Of a stretch of 64,000 nt of DNA, positions 27,399 to 32,770 are shown in pieces. How positions within the stretch are numbered: position 1 is the stretch's first letter; each line of letters starts with the position of its first letter. A program made the position numbers and the translations under genes. The stretch comes from Candidatus Lachnoclostridium avicola. GTDB taxonomy: Bacteria > Bacillota > Clostridia > Lachnospirales > Lachnospiraceae. The notes beneath the pieces were generated by a model. It was not told the DNA's origin, did no database searches, and was given only the letters and a program-made list of their open reading frames with translations. The stretch covers positions 41,475-105,474 of the forward strand of contig DXFM01000048.1 of assembly GCA_019114465.1 (NCBI GenBank). The letters run 5' to 3'.

Positions 27399-29072
27399 AT
27401 GCTGTTAGAGCTGCATGTTCGCAATCTGGCTCTGATCGAGAGGGCGGATGTGGAATTCGGCGAGGGCTTAAATATCCTTACCGGTGAGACGGGATCGGGA
27501 AAATCTATTTTTATGGGTTCCGTCAACATGGCTCTGGGCGGGAAGGTGCCCAGGGACATGGTGAGAAAGGGCGCGGAGTACGCCTATATTGAACTGATTT
27601 TTTCTGTGGATGAGGAGAAGGGAAAGATCCTGAGGCAGATGGGGGTCACTCCCGATGAGGACGGGATCCTGATCATCTCCAGGAAGATTATGCCGTCCCG
27701 CAGCGTCAGCCGCATCAACGACGAGACGGTGACCCTGGGGAGACTGCGGGAGATCACCGGCCTTCTGCTGGATATCCACGGCCAGCATGAACACCAGTCC
27801 CTGCTGTACCGGTCCAAGCATCTGGAGATTCTGGACTGCTTTGCCGGGGTGGAGAAGATGAAGAAGCAGCTGGCGGAGGAATACCGGCGTTATTGCTCCT
27901 TGGAGGAGGCTGCGGCCGGCTTCCGCACCGACGAGGAGACCAGGAGGCGGGAGGCGGATTTCCTGCGGTTTGAGGTGGATGAGATTGAAGATGCCGCCTT
28001 GAAACCGGGGGAAGAAGAGGAGCTGAGCCGCGCCTACCGCCGGTTTATGGGAAGCAGAAAGATTGTGGAGGCCCTGTCCGCCGCCTATGCGGCAGTGACC
28101 GCAGTGGATGTGGGTGAGGCCAGAAAAGGAGTGGAGAGAGCCGCCGAATATGAGGAGGCCCTGGAAAAGCTGAAGGATCAGCTCTTTGACGCCGAGGCCA
28201 TTTTAAACGACGTGGCCCATGAGATCACCTCCTATCTGGACAATATGGTGTTTGACAAGGAGGAGTTCCGCCGGGTGGAGAGCCGGCTGGACCTCATCCA
28301 CGGGCTGGAGGCGAAGTACGGCTCCGGGACGGAAGCCGTCCATCGGGCTCTTCAGGAAAAGAAAGAGCGTTTAAATGAACTGGAAAATTATGACGGGTTA
28401 AAGCAGAAAGCGGAACAGGAGCTGGAGGAGAGCCGAGAGCGGCTGGATCTTCTGTGTGAGAAACTTTCCGAGCGGAGGAAGCAGGCAGCTTCCGGCCTGG
28501 CGGAAAAGATCCGCAGAAGCCTGCTGGACCTGAATTTTCTGGACGTGGAGTTTGAGATCAGCTTCCGGAAGCTGGACAAATACACGGCTCACGGATTTGA
28601 CGAGGTGGAATTCCTCATTTCCACCAATCCCGGAGAAAGCGTGAAGCCCCTGGGAATGGTGGCCTCTGGCGGAGAGCTGTCCAGAATCATGCTGGCCATC
28701 AAGACCGTGCTGGCGGATACGGACGACGTTCCCACCCTGATTTTTGATGAGATCGACACGGGGATCAGCGGCCGGACGGCCCAGAAGGTGTCGGAAAAGC
28801 TGGCGGTGATCTCAGGAAGCCGTCAGGTGATCTGCATCACCCACCTTCCTCAGATCGCTGCCATGGCGGATTATCACTTTGAGATGGCCAAAGAGCCGAA
28901 GGAGGCCAAGACGGTGACCACCATCCGCCGGCTGGACGGCCGGCAGCAGATTGTGGAGCTGGCAAGGCTTCTCGGGGGAGCGGAGATCACAGACGCGGTG
29001 CTGCAGAACGCCGGAGAGATGAAAAAGCTGGCGGAGCAGACCAAGAGACAGCTGAGAGAATACGGCGCATAA
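27399..29072 (+). CDS. recN: DNA repair protein RecN
   Basis: 'LTGETGSGKSIFMGSVNMALGGK', 'FDEIDTGISGRTAQKVSEKLA'. Confidence 0.97.
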   Translation: MLLELHVRNLALIERADVEFGEGLNILTGETGSGKSIFMGSVNMALGGKVPRDMVRKGAEYAYIELIFSVDEEKGKILRQMGVTPDEDGILIISRKIMPSRSVSRINDETVTLGRLREITGLLLDIHGQHEHQSLLYRSKHLEILDCFAGVEKMKKQLAEEYRRYCSLEEAAAGFRTDEETRRREADFLRFEVDEIEDAALKPGEEEELSRAYRRFMGSRKIVEALSAAYAAVTAVDVGEARKGVERAAEYEEALEKLKDQLFDAEAILNDVAHEITSYLDNMVFDKEEFRRVESRLDLIHGLEAKYGSGTEAVHRALQEKKERLNELENYDGLKQKAEQELEESRERLDLLCEKLSERRKQAASGLAEKIRRSLLDLNFLDVEFEISFRKLDKYTAHGFDEVEFLISTNPGESVKPLGMVASGGELSRIMLAIKTVLADTDDVPTLIFDEIDTGISGRTAQKVSEKLAVISGSRQVICITHLPQIAAMADYHFEMAKEPKEAKTVTTIRRLDGRQQIVELARLLGGAEITDAVLQNAGEMKKLAEQTKRQLREYGA

Positions 29073-29082
29073 ATACAGCAAA

Positions 29083-29126
29083 AAGGGCGGAAGCCCGGGA
29101 GATTTTCCCGGATTTCCGCCCTTCTT
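29083..29126 (+). terminator. Intrinsic terminator after recN
   Basis: aagggcggaa ... ttccgccctt with inner cccggga/tcccgg. Confidence 0.75.
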
Positions 29127-29203
29127 CTGGTTATTTGCCGGACAGCGGGCAGCGCCCGTCAGTACGGGGACCGGAGACATTTCTGCCTCCGGCCCCGGTC
29201 AGG

Positions 29204-29437
29204 TCAGTTATTGCAGCAGCCGCATCCGGAATCCGAACCGGAAGAGATGGGCATGGGAGTGCTGGCGCACACGTCCAGTCCTCTCTGGTAGCCTTCGTTG
29301 AATCCGTTGTTGAATCCGTCGTTCCAGCCACGGTTGTAGCCGGCATTGAAGCCTCTCTGGAAGTCGGACAGCGTCGTATTATTATTGTTGTTATTATTGC
29401 AGCAGCATCTGCGGCAGCATCGATTGCAGCACCACAT
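29204..29437 (-). CDS. Cys/Asn-rich 77-aa protein with seven [FYW][NQ]xG tetrapeptides (putative spore-surface protein)
   Basis: MWCCNRCCRRCCCNNNNNNN..FQRG FNAG YNRG WNDG FNNG FNEG YQRG..CGCCNN; aaaggaga RBS upstream on minus strand; divergent from cotJABC. Confidence 0.75.
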   Translation of the reverse strand: MWCCNRCCRRCCCNNNNNNNTTLSDFQRGFNAGYNRGWNDGFNNGFNEGYQRGLDVCASTPMPISSGSDSGCGCCNN

Positions 29438-29575
29438 ATTTCATTCTCCTTTTATTTTTCATGTTTGTACTATATCTTATGTGGACAGGAGGGAAATGGT
29501 TCTTCCTGTCACCTCTTCCCTGCTTCCTCATAAACTGATATTAGAAAATTCCCTGAAAGGAAAGGAGTATCCTCT

Positions 29576-29794
29576 ATGGATCAATATATGCCCCAGATGG
29601 CGTCTGTCCCCTTTTTCCGTCAGACGGCTGCGGCAGCATTCGGGCAGCAGGCAGACTTTTCTTCATTTCCCGTAGGCATGGCGTATGTGCCCATGCAGAA
29701 GTGGCAGCAGACCTACGACCTGGGCCTGGGCTTTTCCCGCGGCACGATTTTTCCGGATTTAGATCTTCCGTTTGTGATGGGGAGGTGTCAGTAA
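29576..29794 (+). CDS. cotJA: Spore coat associated protein CotJA
   Basis: 'MAYVPMQKWQQTYDLGLGFSRGTIFPDLDLPF'. Confidence 0.92.
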   Translation: MDQYMPQMASVPFFRQTAAAAFGQQADFSSFPVGMAYVPMQKWQQTYDLGLGFSRGTIFPDLDLPFVMGRCQ

Positions 29795-30118
29795 ATGAAC
29801 TATATGAATGGAACCCCGGGATTTGCCGCCGGGCAGAGGCAGACGGCAGTGACCCCGGCGCCGGTCTCTGACGCGGCTCAGATTCTTCAGGTGCTGGATC
29901 AGGCCAGCTTTGCCATGGATGACGTGCTCTTGTATCTGGATACCCATCCCACCGACACGGAAGCCCTGGCTTACTATCAGTATGTGAAAAGCCTCCGAAG
30001 CCAGGCGATGAACGCCTACACAGATCAATACGGCCCGCTGATGAAAGACCAGGAAAGATCCACCACCGACTGGACCTGGATCAGCGGACCCTGGCCCTGG
30101 GAAGGAGGTAGAAACTGA
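29795..30118 (+). CDS. cotJB: Spore coat protein CotJB
   Basis: 'LQVLDQASFAMDDVLLYLDTHPTDTEALAYYQ', ending in 'WTWISGPWPWEGG'. Confidence 0.9.
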   Translation: MNYMNGTPGFAAGQRQTAVTPAPVSDAAQILQVLDQASFAMDDVLLYLDTHPTDTEALAYYQYVKSLRSQAMNAYTDQYGPLMKDQERSTTDWTWISGPWPWEGGRN

Positions 30119-31218
30119 TGTGGATGTATGAAAAAAGACTGCAGTACCCGGTAAATATCAAAAACCCGGATCCGAAGATGGCTCAGTTTATCATGAGCCA
30201 GTACGGCGGACCCGACGGCGAAATCGGGGCGTCCATGCGCTATCTCTCCCAGCGGTATGCCATGCCCTACGACACCTGCAAGGCGGTCCTGACGGACATT
30301 GGAACGGAGGAGCTTGCCCACATGGAGATCGTGGCGGCGATTATTCACCAGCTGACGCGGAATCTGACTCCGGAGCAGATCGTGGAGGCTGGATTCGGGC
30401 CCTACTATATTGACCACACCACAGGAATCTGGCCCCAGGCGGCGGGCGGAGTTCCGTTTAACGCCTGTGAGTTCCAGTCCAAGGGCGATGTGATCACGGA
30501 TCTGGTGGAGGATATGGCGGCAGAGCAGAAAGCCCGCACCACCTATGACAACATACTCCGGGTGGTGAAGGATCCGGATGTGTGCGATCCCATCCGGTAC
30601 CTGAGAGAGCGGGAGATCGTTCATTTCCAGCGTTTCGGTGAAGCTCTGCGGATTACCCAGGATCACCTGGATTCCAGAAACTTCTACGCCTTCAATCCCG
30701 CTTTTGACCAGGTGAGAGGCAGTCAGCCGGAAAATGGGACGGAACATCAGCCTCAGGTTCCTCCGTCTGTGATCACTCCCCCCGAGAACGGTTCCCAGGC
30801 GGGAGAGGAGACGGTGCTCCAGCCCGGCGGAGCGTCCGGAGGCGGGCAGATGGAGAGCGGAGAAAACGGCGCGCAGTCCGGCGCTGCGCAGTCCGGAAGC
30901 GGGACGCAGACGGGAAACGGGATGCAGTTCGGGAACGGGACAGTGTCCGGCGGGGCGTCCGCCAGAGCTCAGACGGGAAATGTCATGCAGCCGACGGTGA
31001 GAACCGTTCCCGCGGCTCAGAGACAGACTGCCGGCATGGCAGCGGGAACACCGCGGAGCGCGGCGGGAATGACGGGAGGCGGAGGCCAGATGCAGCAGCA
31101 GACAGCCCGGTCCCGGCAGACTGTGCCCCTGTCCGGCAGATCAGGGAACGGGAGCGGAAGCTGCGCCTGCCCCAATATGCCCTGCGGCAGTCCCTACACA
31201 CCTTTTGGGGGATGCTGA
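30118..31218 (+). CDS. cotJC: CotJC, manganese-catalase-like spore coat protein with low-complexity C-terminal extension
   Basis: 'MWMYEKRLQYPVNIKNPDPKMAQFIMSQYGGPDGEIGASMRYLSQRYAMP'; Gly/Ser/Gln/Asn-rich tail of about 160 aa. Confidence 0.93.
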   Translation: MWMYEKRLQYPVNIKNPDPKMAQFIMSQYGGPDGEIGASMRYLSQRYAMPYDTCKAVLTDIGTEELAHMEIVAAIIHQLTRNLTPEQIVEAGFGPYYIDHTTGIWPQAAGGVPFNACEFQSKGDVITDLVEDMAAEQKARTTYDNILRVVKDPDVCDPIRYLREREIVHFQRFGEALRITQDHLDSRNFYAFNPAFDQVRGSQPENGTEHQPQVPPSVITPPENGSQAGEETVLQPGGASGGGQMESGENGAQSGAAQSGSGTQTGNGMQFGNGTVSGGASARAQTGNVMQPTVRTVPAAQRQTAGMAAGTPRSAAGMTGGGGQMQQQTARSRQTVPLSGRSGNGSGSCACPNMPCGSPYTPFGGC

Positions 31219-31237
31219 GTTTTCAAGATAATAAAAA

Positions 31238-31313
31238 CAGGAAGGCCGTAAGGCCTTCCTGCGGCGAGGGGTGGCGCAGCCACCCCTCAGGCTGTTTGCC
31301 TGGCAAACAGCCT
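31238..31313. repeat. Three consecutive perfect hairpins between convergent genes
   Basis: caggaaggcc-gtaa-ggccttcctg; gaggggtggc-gca-gccacccctc; aggctgtttgc-ctg-gcaaacagcct. Confidence 0.95.
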
Positions 31314-31898
31314 TTAACAATCCTTGGTGCTCTCTCCCGGCAGGAGGGGCGTTGAGGAGGAATCCTCCCTGTGAAGCTCCTGCTTCTTGTTCCGGATCAG
31401 ATGGATGCCCAGCACGATGATAAAGACGGAAAACAGCGCCCGGAGGGAGAAGGATCCGAACATGCGGAAGGCCGCGTACAGCCGTCTGGAGATAGAAAAC
31501 ATTCCCATGACCATGTAGAGAAAATCCATCAGATAGTTCCAGAGGAGGATGACTCCGAGGACAATGAGCACGGCGGCCACGGCTTTCCGGTTTTTCTGCA
31601 GCCACTGACGGCTCAGGAACGGGAAATCTTTCTGATGGAAGAGATAATCGTCCTCCACGGCGTAAAATTCCTCATCCGGCATGGAGTTTAGGTTGTGCAC
31701 ATGGAAAAAACTGTAAAACCAGATGACCGGCTGGACAAAGAGCAGGGCAGGCAGATTCAGGATGCCGCTGACGGCCCAGATCAGAAAGAAGATGCCCATG
31801 AGACTGACGCCCTGCTTCATAAAGCCCAGGTACATTTCTCCGGCTCCCGGCAGCAGGGAACAGCAGAACGTCAGAAATTTATTCTTTTTTCTCGTCAT
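31314..31898 (-). CDS. Polytopic membrane protein in ECF sigma operon
   Basis: Multiple hydrophobic segments; follows anti-sigma gene; start ATG 31898 ('MTRKKNKFLTFCCSLLPGAGEMYLGFMKQG'). Confidence 0.65.
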   Translation of the reverse strand: MTRKKNKFLTFCCSLLPGAGEMYLGFMKQGVSLMGIFFLIWAVSGILNLPALLFVQPVIWFYSFFHVHNLNSMPDEEFYAVEDDYLFHQKDFPFLSRQWLQKNRKAVAAVLIVLGVILLWNYLMDFLYMVMGMFSISRRLYAAFRMFGSFSLRALFSVFIIVLGIHLIRNKKQELHREDSSSTPLLPGESTKDC

Positions 31899-32289
31899 AT
31901 AAGTAGACCTCCCAATTGGATAATTCATAAGACATTCGGTTCAGATTGTCGGTGATCTGCCGGGCTTTCTGATAGAAGGGAACGGAAAAACGGATGTCCG
32001 GTCCGGCAGGAAGCGAAGAGGGGAGCAGGGCCAGCAGCAGTACGCTCACGGCCACAGCCGTTCCCACCTTCAGGCTGTAAAGGAGGAGGCGGGTTCGATG
32101 GGAGAGCTTCCTGGCTTCGGCGGGCAGCTTCACATCCGGCTGGCTGCAGCGCTTCATCACGGAAGATTTTAAATCTCCGGGGGCGCGGATGAGAAAATTT
32201 TCCTCAATATAGTCAGCGAATTCTTCTGCTGCCAGGTCATCCTTTTTTACCTGTTCCAGCAAGTCTCTGGTGAGATCCGTATGTTCCAT
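31879..32289 (-). CDS. Putative anti-sigma factor (single TM)
   Basis: Immediately downstream of ECF sigma, one TM segment 'AVAVSVLLLALLPSSL'; overlaps the sigma gene. Confidence 0.6.
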   Translation of the reverse strand: MEHTDLTRDLLEQVKKDDLAAEEFADYIEENFLIRAPGDLKSSVMKRCSQPDVKLPAEARKLSHRTRLLLYSLKVGTAVAVSVLLLALLPSSLPAGPDIRFSVPFYQKARQITDNLNRMSYELSNWEVYLYDEKKE

Positions 32290-32770
32290 GGCCTGCATCC
32301 TCCTTTCCATAGAGTTTCCGTATCATGGCTTTCGCGCGGTAAACCTGCGTCTGAAGCGTTTTTATATTGCGGCCTGTCTTTGCCGCCAGCTCGTTGATAC
32401 TGAGCTCGTAATAAAAATAATCGATGGCCACGTCCCGGTAAGGCTGGTTTAAAGCCATACAGCAGCGCAGCAGTTCTTCCCGGACGGCGCGGTCCAGAGC
32501 AGTGTTTTCCGGAGAGCTGCCGTCGGAGGGGACGGTGACGAAGAAGCTGTCTTCCGTGGGAACAGACCGTCTGCCAGCCCGCTTCAAGTAGTCGATACAC
32601 TTGTTGGTGGCAATGCGGCAGAGCCAGGCCCGCTCATTTTTTCCGTCAAAAGCGGAAAGACTTTTGTAGGCAGACAGGAACGTGTCCTGCGCTAAGTCCT
32701 CCGCCTCGAAATAGTCTCCCGTGAGACGATAGCAGATGGAGTAGACCAGATTCTGGTACTGATCGATCAT
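32237..32770 (-). CDS. ECF-subfamily RNA polymerase sigma factor
   Basis: 'DYFEAEDLAQDTFLSAYKSL', 'NERAWLCRIATNKCIDYLKR', sigma-4 'YFYYELSINELAAKTGRNIKTLQTQVYRAKAMI'. Confidence 0.93.
   Translation of the reverse strand: MIDQYQNLVYSICYRLTGDYFEAEDLAQDTFLSAYKSLSAFDGKNERAWLCRIATNKCIDYLKRAGRRSVPTEDSFFVTVPSDGSSPENTALDRAVREELLRCCMALNQPYRDVAIDYFYYELSINELAAKTGRNIKTLQTQVYRAKAMIRKLYGKEDAGHGTYGSHQRLAGTGKKG

Follow-up and report, generated by a model that had tools for sequence, protein, structure and literature searches.

A conserved Cys-rich GX3 protein gene divergent from cotJABC in Lachnospiraceae, a probable late-made component of the spore surface

The window analysed here, a stretch of 64,000 nucleotides from Candidatus Lachnoclostridium avicola, a bacterium of the chicken gut, carries a small gene on the strand opposite to the cotJABC operon, whose product joins Cys-rich ends to an unbroken run of tetrapeptides ending in Gly (GX3 units). 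What is such a protein for, and is it made together with the coat proteins encoded beside it? The comparisons below point to a probable role as a cross-linked structural unit of the spore shell, since a late-sporulation promoter is common to its family and to collagen-like spore-surface proteins.

Results

The gene, its protein and its conservation in the genus

The original prediction described an open reading frame with seven consecutive [FYW][NQ]xG units between Cys-rich ends, and translation confirms it. The minus strand of 29204-29437 reads MWCCNRCCRRCCCNNNNNNNTTLSDFQRGFNAGYNRGWNDGFNNGFNEGYQRGLDVCASTPMPISSGSDSGCGCCNN*, laid out as MWCCNRCCRRCCC-N7-TTLSD-[FQRG FNAG YNRG WNDG FNNG FNEG YQRG]-LDVCASTPMPISSGSDSGCGCCNN, and the features are collected in Table 1. 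Eleven of the 77 residues are Cys, a high content of the kind that marks Cys-rich structural proteins of the spore surface. Seven Gly at a four-residue step did not arise in any of 100,000 shuffles of the same residues (the best was six, in five shuffles), and the run is the longest of its kind among all open reading frames of at least 40 aa in the window.

Table 1. Positions in the window of the Cys-rich gene, its parts and promoters, and the neighbouring coat operon
Feature	Position	Strand	Evidence or remark
Cys-rich GX3 protein gene	29204..29437	-	77 aa and stop; orthologues and dN/dS
Cys-rich head MWCCNRCCRRCCC, residues 1-13	29399..29437	-	translation; head Cys-rich in all family members
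Asn run, residues 14-20	29378..29398	-	linker, length varies among relatives
Core of seven GX3 units, residues 26-53	29279..29362	-	predicted helical
PMPI motif, residues 61-64	29246..29257	-	common to several relatives within and outside the genus
Cys tail CGCCNN, residues 72-77	29207..29224	-	translation
Ribosome-binding site AAGGAG, 8 nt 5' of ATG	29446..29451	-	sequence
Extended conserved element CATAAGATATAGTACAAA (18 bases)	29464..29481	-	alignment, pattern searches
Sigma-K-type promoter of the Cys-rich gene, AC-N17-CATAAGATA	29473..29500	-	conserved in 9/9 genus loci
Sigma-K-type promoter of cotJA, AC-N16-CATAAACTG	29511..29537	+	back to back with the Cys-rich-gene promoter
cotJA	29576..29794	+	Pfam CotJA, E 1.8e-17
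cotJB	29795..30118	+	Pfam CotJB, E 7.3e-29
cotJC (Mn-catalase-like)	30118..31218	+	Pfam Mn_catalase, E 6.4e-48 over residues 1-182

Is this a genuine gene? Eight further species of the genus were sampled and each of them has an orthologue; dN/dS is 0.066 and 0.035 against the two nearest species, with a range of 0.035-0.09 between close species. On these comparisons the gene is real, conserved across the genus and under strong purifying selection. Selection on the protein had been argued from the mixed codons of the Asn run (AAT AAT AAC AAC AAT AAT AAT); the claim stands, but that argument is weak, and dN/dS makes a far better case for coding status. The positions invariant across orthologues are mainly glycines, several Asn of the core, the flanking Cys and the MW start, and the number of GX3 units in close orthologues is seven or eight. 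The Asn run measures 7, 8, 8 or 9 residues in relatives or is replaced by GNQNGN, its composition being kept better than its sequence. The relatives that bear names are Lachnospiraceae, several of them filed under Lachnoclostridium.

The predicted divergence from cotJABC holds as well, with CotJA, CotJB and CotJC assigned to the plus strand by Pfam, and a homologue lies beside cotJABC, in divergent orientation, in every one of the nine genus species. On the Cys-rich-gene side, the window and the two species closest to it have recN, and L004-L008 have sigma-factor genes instead, so the block was inverted as a unit with the divergent pair intact. The inversion, seen between window 27399-32770 and L004-L008, places the Cys-rich gene and cotJABC differently relative to the recN and sigma-factor genes in the genus lineages. 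One genome (G003) has two versions of the locus (L005, L012), and the near-identity of L012 to L006 of G006 makes a mixed assembly likelier than a duplication of the locus.

Promoters of the divergent pair

When would the two transcription units be expressed? In the aligned intergenic regions of the genus, the promoter of the Cys-rich gene is nearly invariant, AC-N16/17-CATANNATA-N-AGTACAAA, and cotJA is preceded by AC-N16-CATANANT in 9/9 loci; AC-N16/17-CATANNNTA stands on both sides of the intergenic region in all nine. In C. difficile, sigma-E and sigma-K promoters have a common -10 and are told apart by the -35, ATA versus AC, and the bclA genes and the cotJB2-cotD operon are sigma-K-dependent (PMC3789822). 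No ATA-type -35 was found at the matching distance before cotJA in the nine genus loci. Given this, and the AC of the -35, comparison with the C. difficile consensus makes the Cys-rich gene and the coat operon look like a pair with back-to-back sigma-K-type promoters. All nine loci agree with the sigma-K consensus, of which the -35 is just two bases and the -10 is common to sigma-E and sigma-K.

Genes sharing the promoter element

The 18-base element has exactly two perfect matches in the window genome, one before the Cys-rich gene and the other before a gene for a collagen-repeat protein (Pfam Collagen, E 8e-31) with an N-terminal Cys cluster, CGCRPPCPPPPGPSCCCRGATGPTG. With at most one mismatch, it precedes the gene of a BclA-like collagen partner in 6/9 genus genomes (G000, G002, G004, G006, G007, G008), while the reversed pattern gives 0-2 matches per genus genome. 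The association with BclA-like proteins takes the form of a common promoter element in these six genomes. At the same stringency the element also precedes the gene of a DUF4397 protein in 4/9 genus genomes (G000, G001, G007, G008). This protein (MAEMNYFF...) is encoded directly 3' of the near-match at L121, L242, L245 and L247, and its gene is a candidate late-sporulation gene from this position.

Does the element mark such genes beyond the genus? With the element alone as query, pattern searches were run on 299 Lachnospiraceae genomes, nearly all of different genera, and yielded 23 sites, where the reversed pattern yielded 5. Thirteen of the 23 lead a Cys-rich open reading frame, mostly 40-46 bases 5' of the ATG and most with a GX3 core. 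Such a reading frame follows 46 of 20,000 random positions (0.2%) and 7 of 310 plain CATANNNTA sites. Note that five of the 23 sites were already known before the motif search; the other 18 include eight that lead a Cys-rich reading frame and one, also among the matches in the window genome, that leads the collagen protein. AC is present at 16 or 17 in 14/14 of the Cys-rich or collagen sites versus 4/9 of the remaining sites. Promoter and regulon together bear out that the gene is spore-related, as had been predicted, in a genome that encodes SpoIVA (E 5e-121).

The wider family

Members of the family occur in other genera (L052/L138, L098/L135, L131, L133, L136, L142, L143, L147, L151, L178). 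They have a Cys-rich head, a variable Gly/Asn/Cys linker, a core of about 3-10 GX3 units and usually a Cys-rich tail; some also carry the PMPI motif. The first position of the unit (x1) is Tyr, Phe or Trp in 114 of 115 hand-picked units, the second (x2) is mostly Asn, Gln or Arg, and Cys makes up 9-20% or more of most relatives. Because Cys-rich and GX3 sequence is of low complexity, distant members are taken as homologous on the joint evidence of promoter and architecture. In four other genera (G150, G284, G203, G248) the gene is likewise a neighbour of cotJ and runs opposite in strand to CotJB; elsewhere it lies away from cotJ, and most CotJ loci of Lachnospiraceae are without such a gene.

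How far does the family extend? GX3 matches were searched for in a sample of 338 genomes of the class. Outside Lachnospiraceae they were FliH-like or otherwise Cys-poor, with one exception (L197), and the family thus seems to be mainly one of Lachnospiraceae at this sampling, although low-complexity sequence may hide distant members. The exception, from another family of the class (G530), is rich in Cys, carries a long GX3 run and has a Cys-rich tail. Two groups of GX3 matches, the FliH-like proteins and those that resemble transposases or nucleases and have GX3 tails, were set aside as unrelated, being Cys-poor and otherwise different. Viral contigs gave no relative. Nothing in the papers searched joined GxxxG, Cys-rich and spore coat, and the Cys-rich GX3 proteins are apparently an undescribed family, probably a variety of Cys-rich structural protein of the spore surface.

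Cys-rich modules and intervening elements at cotJ

CotJC itself has a long, low-complexity C-terminal tail rich in Gly, Gln and Asn that ends in Cys (GSCACPNMPCGSPYTPFGGC in the window, PGCCETGGTAGNGAVMRRGCC in L015), a possible cross-linking anchor. In many other Lachnospiraceae (L034, L036, L048, L053, L054, L093 and more), CotJA has a Cys-rich N-terminal extension with up to 19 Cys; in the window genus the CotJA N-terminus has 0-2 Cys, and the Cys-rich module is a separate gene. The idea that this gene replaces the CotJA extension of other genera is no more than suggestive, because both are present in L052 and L098.

In five relatives, elements that encode large serine recombinases split cotJC, always at one or both of two fixed sites (L218, L219 in G006; L220, L221 in G004; L222-L224 in G002; L225, L226 in G003; L205 in G007). 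Site 1, after codon ~31-33, holds a prophage-like element in G002, G004 and G006, and in G007 at a contig end. The 5' half of cotJC is followed there by genes for phage tail and endolysin-like proteins, as judged by eye in G002 and G004. In G002, G004 and G006 the 3' half is preceded, at 41-49 bases, by the end of a large serine recombinase gene (485-488 aa). Site 2, after codon ~134-136, is occupied in G003 and G006, and in G002 as judged by split fragments; in G006 it holds a 5.4-kb element with tricarboxylate-transporter genes, whose 539-aa serine recombinase ends 15 bases 5' of the 3' half. When the flanks are joined at common cores, the CotJC frame is restored, and it matches the uninterrupted CotJC of the window at 179-181 of 198 residues. 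By analogy, this looks like sporulation intervening elements of the skin, gin and yin type, and such splitting would fit mother-cell-only use of the locus of cotJ and the Cys-rich gene. Among open-licence papers, none was found on cotJC as a target of such elements.

Discussion

How might the protein work? The genomic evidence makes us fairly confident of a structural protein of the spore surface, made late together with cotJABC and the BclA-like collagen protein. It would be expressed in the mother cell late in sporulation from its sigma-K-type promoter, and the product would be placed in the coat or an exosporium-like layer. A helix with Gly at every fourth position presents a flat side along which it can pack closely. 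In the AlphaFold2 model, which is of low confidence (mean pLDDT 53.6, ~67 in the core; a wider alignment was worse, 43.7), residues 25-59 form two helices and the Cys-rich ends are both disordered, and the core probably forms glycine-faced helices, either as a hairpin or in intermolecular pairs. GX3 segments in FliH and Yae1-Lto1 are tied to dimerisation or complex formation (PMC2674601, PMC4523923), and CsxA, CotY and ExsY self-assemble, are locked by disulfides and carry collagen-like filaments on top (PMC7333573, PMC4950064). By analogy we infer that copies of the window protein would self-associate through the core and that the Cys-rich ends would lock the assembly by disulfides; these ends may also bind the collagen-like filament and CotJC where those proteins carry Cys at their own ends.

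Could the protein instead be a bacterial relative of the Yae1/Lto1 deca-GX3 adaptors, a resemblance remarked in the original prediction, or of FliH? Searches of Pfam, NCBIfam, PDB sequences and Foldseek gave GX3-type or chance matches only. Pfam Yae1_N (PF09811) scores 22.4 bits on the window protein against a cut-off of 27.5, and at E up to 0.1 it also matches 10 of 13 family members. That GX3 stretch, and nothing outside it, is matched as well or better by FliH models (NCBIfam, 25.9 against 192 bits). Since both match the same stretch and both curated cut-offs are failed, the resemblance is one of GX3 periodicity only; membership in either family was rejected, and the Yae1/Lto1 link is not supported. 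What is alike is the GX3 periodicity, which in Yae1/Lto1 mediates a protein complex (PMC4523923) and in the GxxxG segment of FliH/YscL forms long runs that favour Tyr or Phe at x1 and are thought to pack helices (PMC2674601). However, Yae1/Lto1 are eukaryotic Fe-S adaptors, and FliH acts in flagellar export and lacks Cys-rich ends, whereas x1 is nearly always aromatic in the window family. With neither a flagellar nor an Fe-S assembly gene adjoining, such kinship is highly improbable. A modified-peptide (RiPP) reading was also rejected, as no maturase adjoins the gene and the regulon points to spores.

Two further readings involve the neighbouring operon. The Cys might bind a metal such as Zn or Cu, either to store it or to serve CotJC, as in a metallothionein-like sporulation protein; in favour are the eleven Cys among 77 residues, spaced as CC, CxC and CxxC, and the divergence from a gene of the Mn-catalase family. 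But Cys number and spacing differ widely among orthologues, the aromatic-rich GX3 core is unlike metallothioneins, and the members in most other genera do not adjoin cotJ, which together leave metal binding unlikely. Or the GX3 helices might bind CotJA or CotJB and recruit CotJC into the coat, so that the protein would be a dedicated partner of CotJ assembly and not a layer of its own. The linkage to cotJABC in all nine genus species and four other genera, the matched promoters and the CotJC tails ending in Cys agree with this role; the members located away from cotJ, and the many CotJ loci of Lachnospiraceae that have no such gene, count against it, and we consider it improbable.

The structural reading finds its nearest likenesses among known spore-surface proteins. 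CsxA of Clostridium sporogenes/botulinum and CotY and ExsY of Bacillus are small, Cys-rich, made in sporulation and associated with BclA (PMC7333573, PMC4950064). However, a GX3 core is not among the features described there, and 13 members of the window family gave no match at E up to 0.1 to coat-family models of Pfam and NCBIfam, those of CotY/CotZ/ExsY among them. Unlike in these systems, the tie of the window protein to collagen is a common promoter element and not co-location. CdeC and CdeM of Clostridioides difficile are Cys-rich exosporium proteins required for BclA complexes and the outer layer, and CdeM resembles the window protein in its Asn/Gly-rich repeats with Cys; but both are longer, no GX3 core is described for them, and they are reported missing from Lachnospiraceae (PMC6101409). 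Note that CsxA, CdeC and CdeM are set apart from the window family by their descriptions in the literature.

What would this mean for the Lachnospiraceae, a major spore-forming family of the gut whose spore surface is hardly known? What emerges are candidates for the proteins of a basal layer, together with collagen-like partners and a promoter signature by which genomes can be searched for the set. We suggest, tentatively and with some doubt, that in many Lachnospiraceae a fast-diverging class of Cys-rich GX3 proteins may replace CsxA/ExsY/CdeC as the layer to which collagen filaments are attached, and that its invariant sigma-K-type promoter could by itself suffice to locate the class in genomes. 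If core and ends work as proposed, the combination of GX3 helices with disulfide-forming termini would amount to a new, minimal architecture for a self-assembling spore protein.
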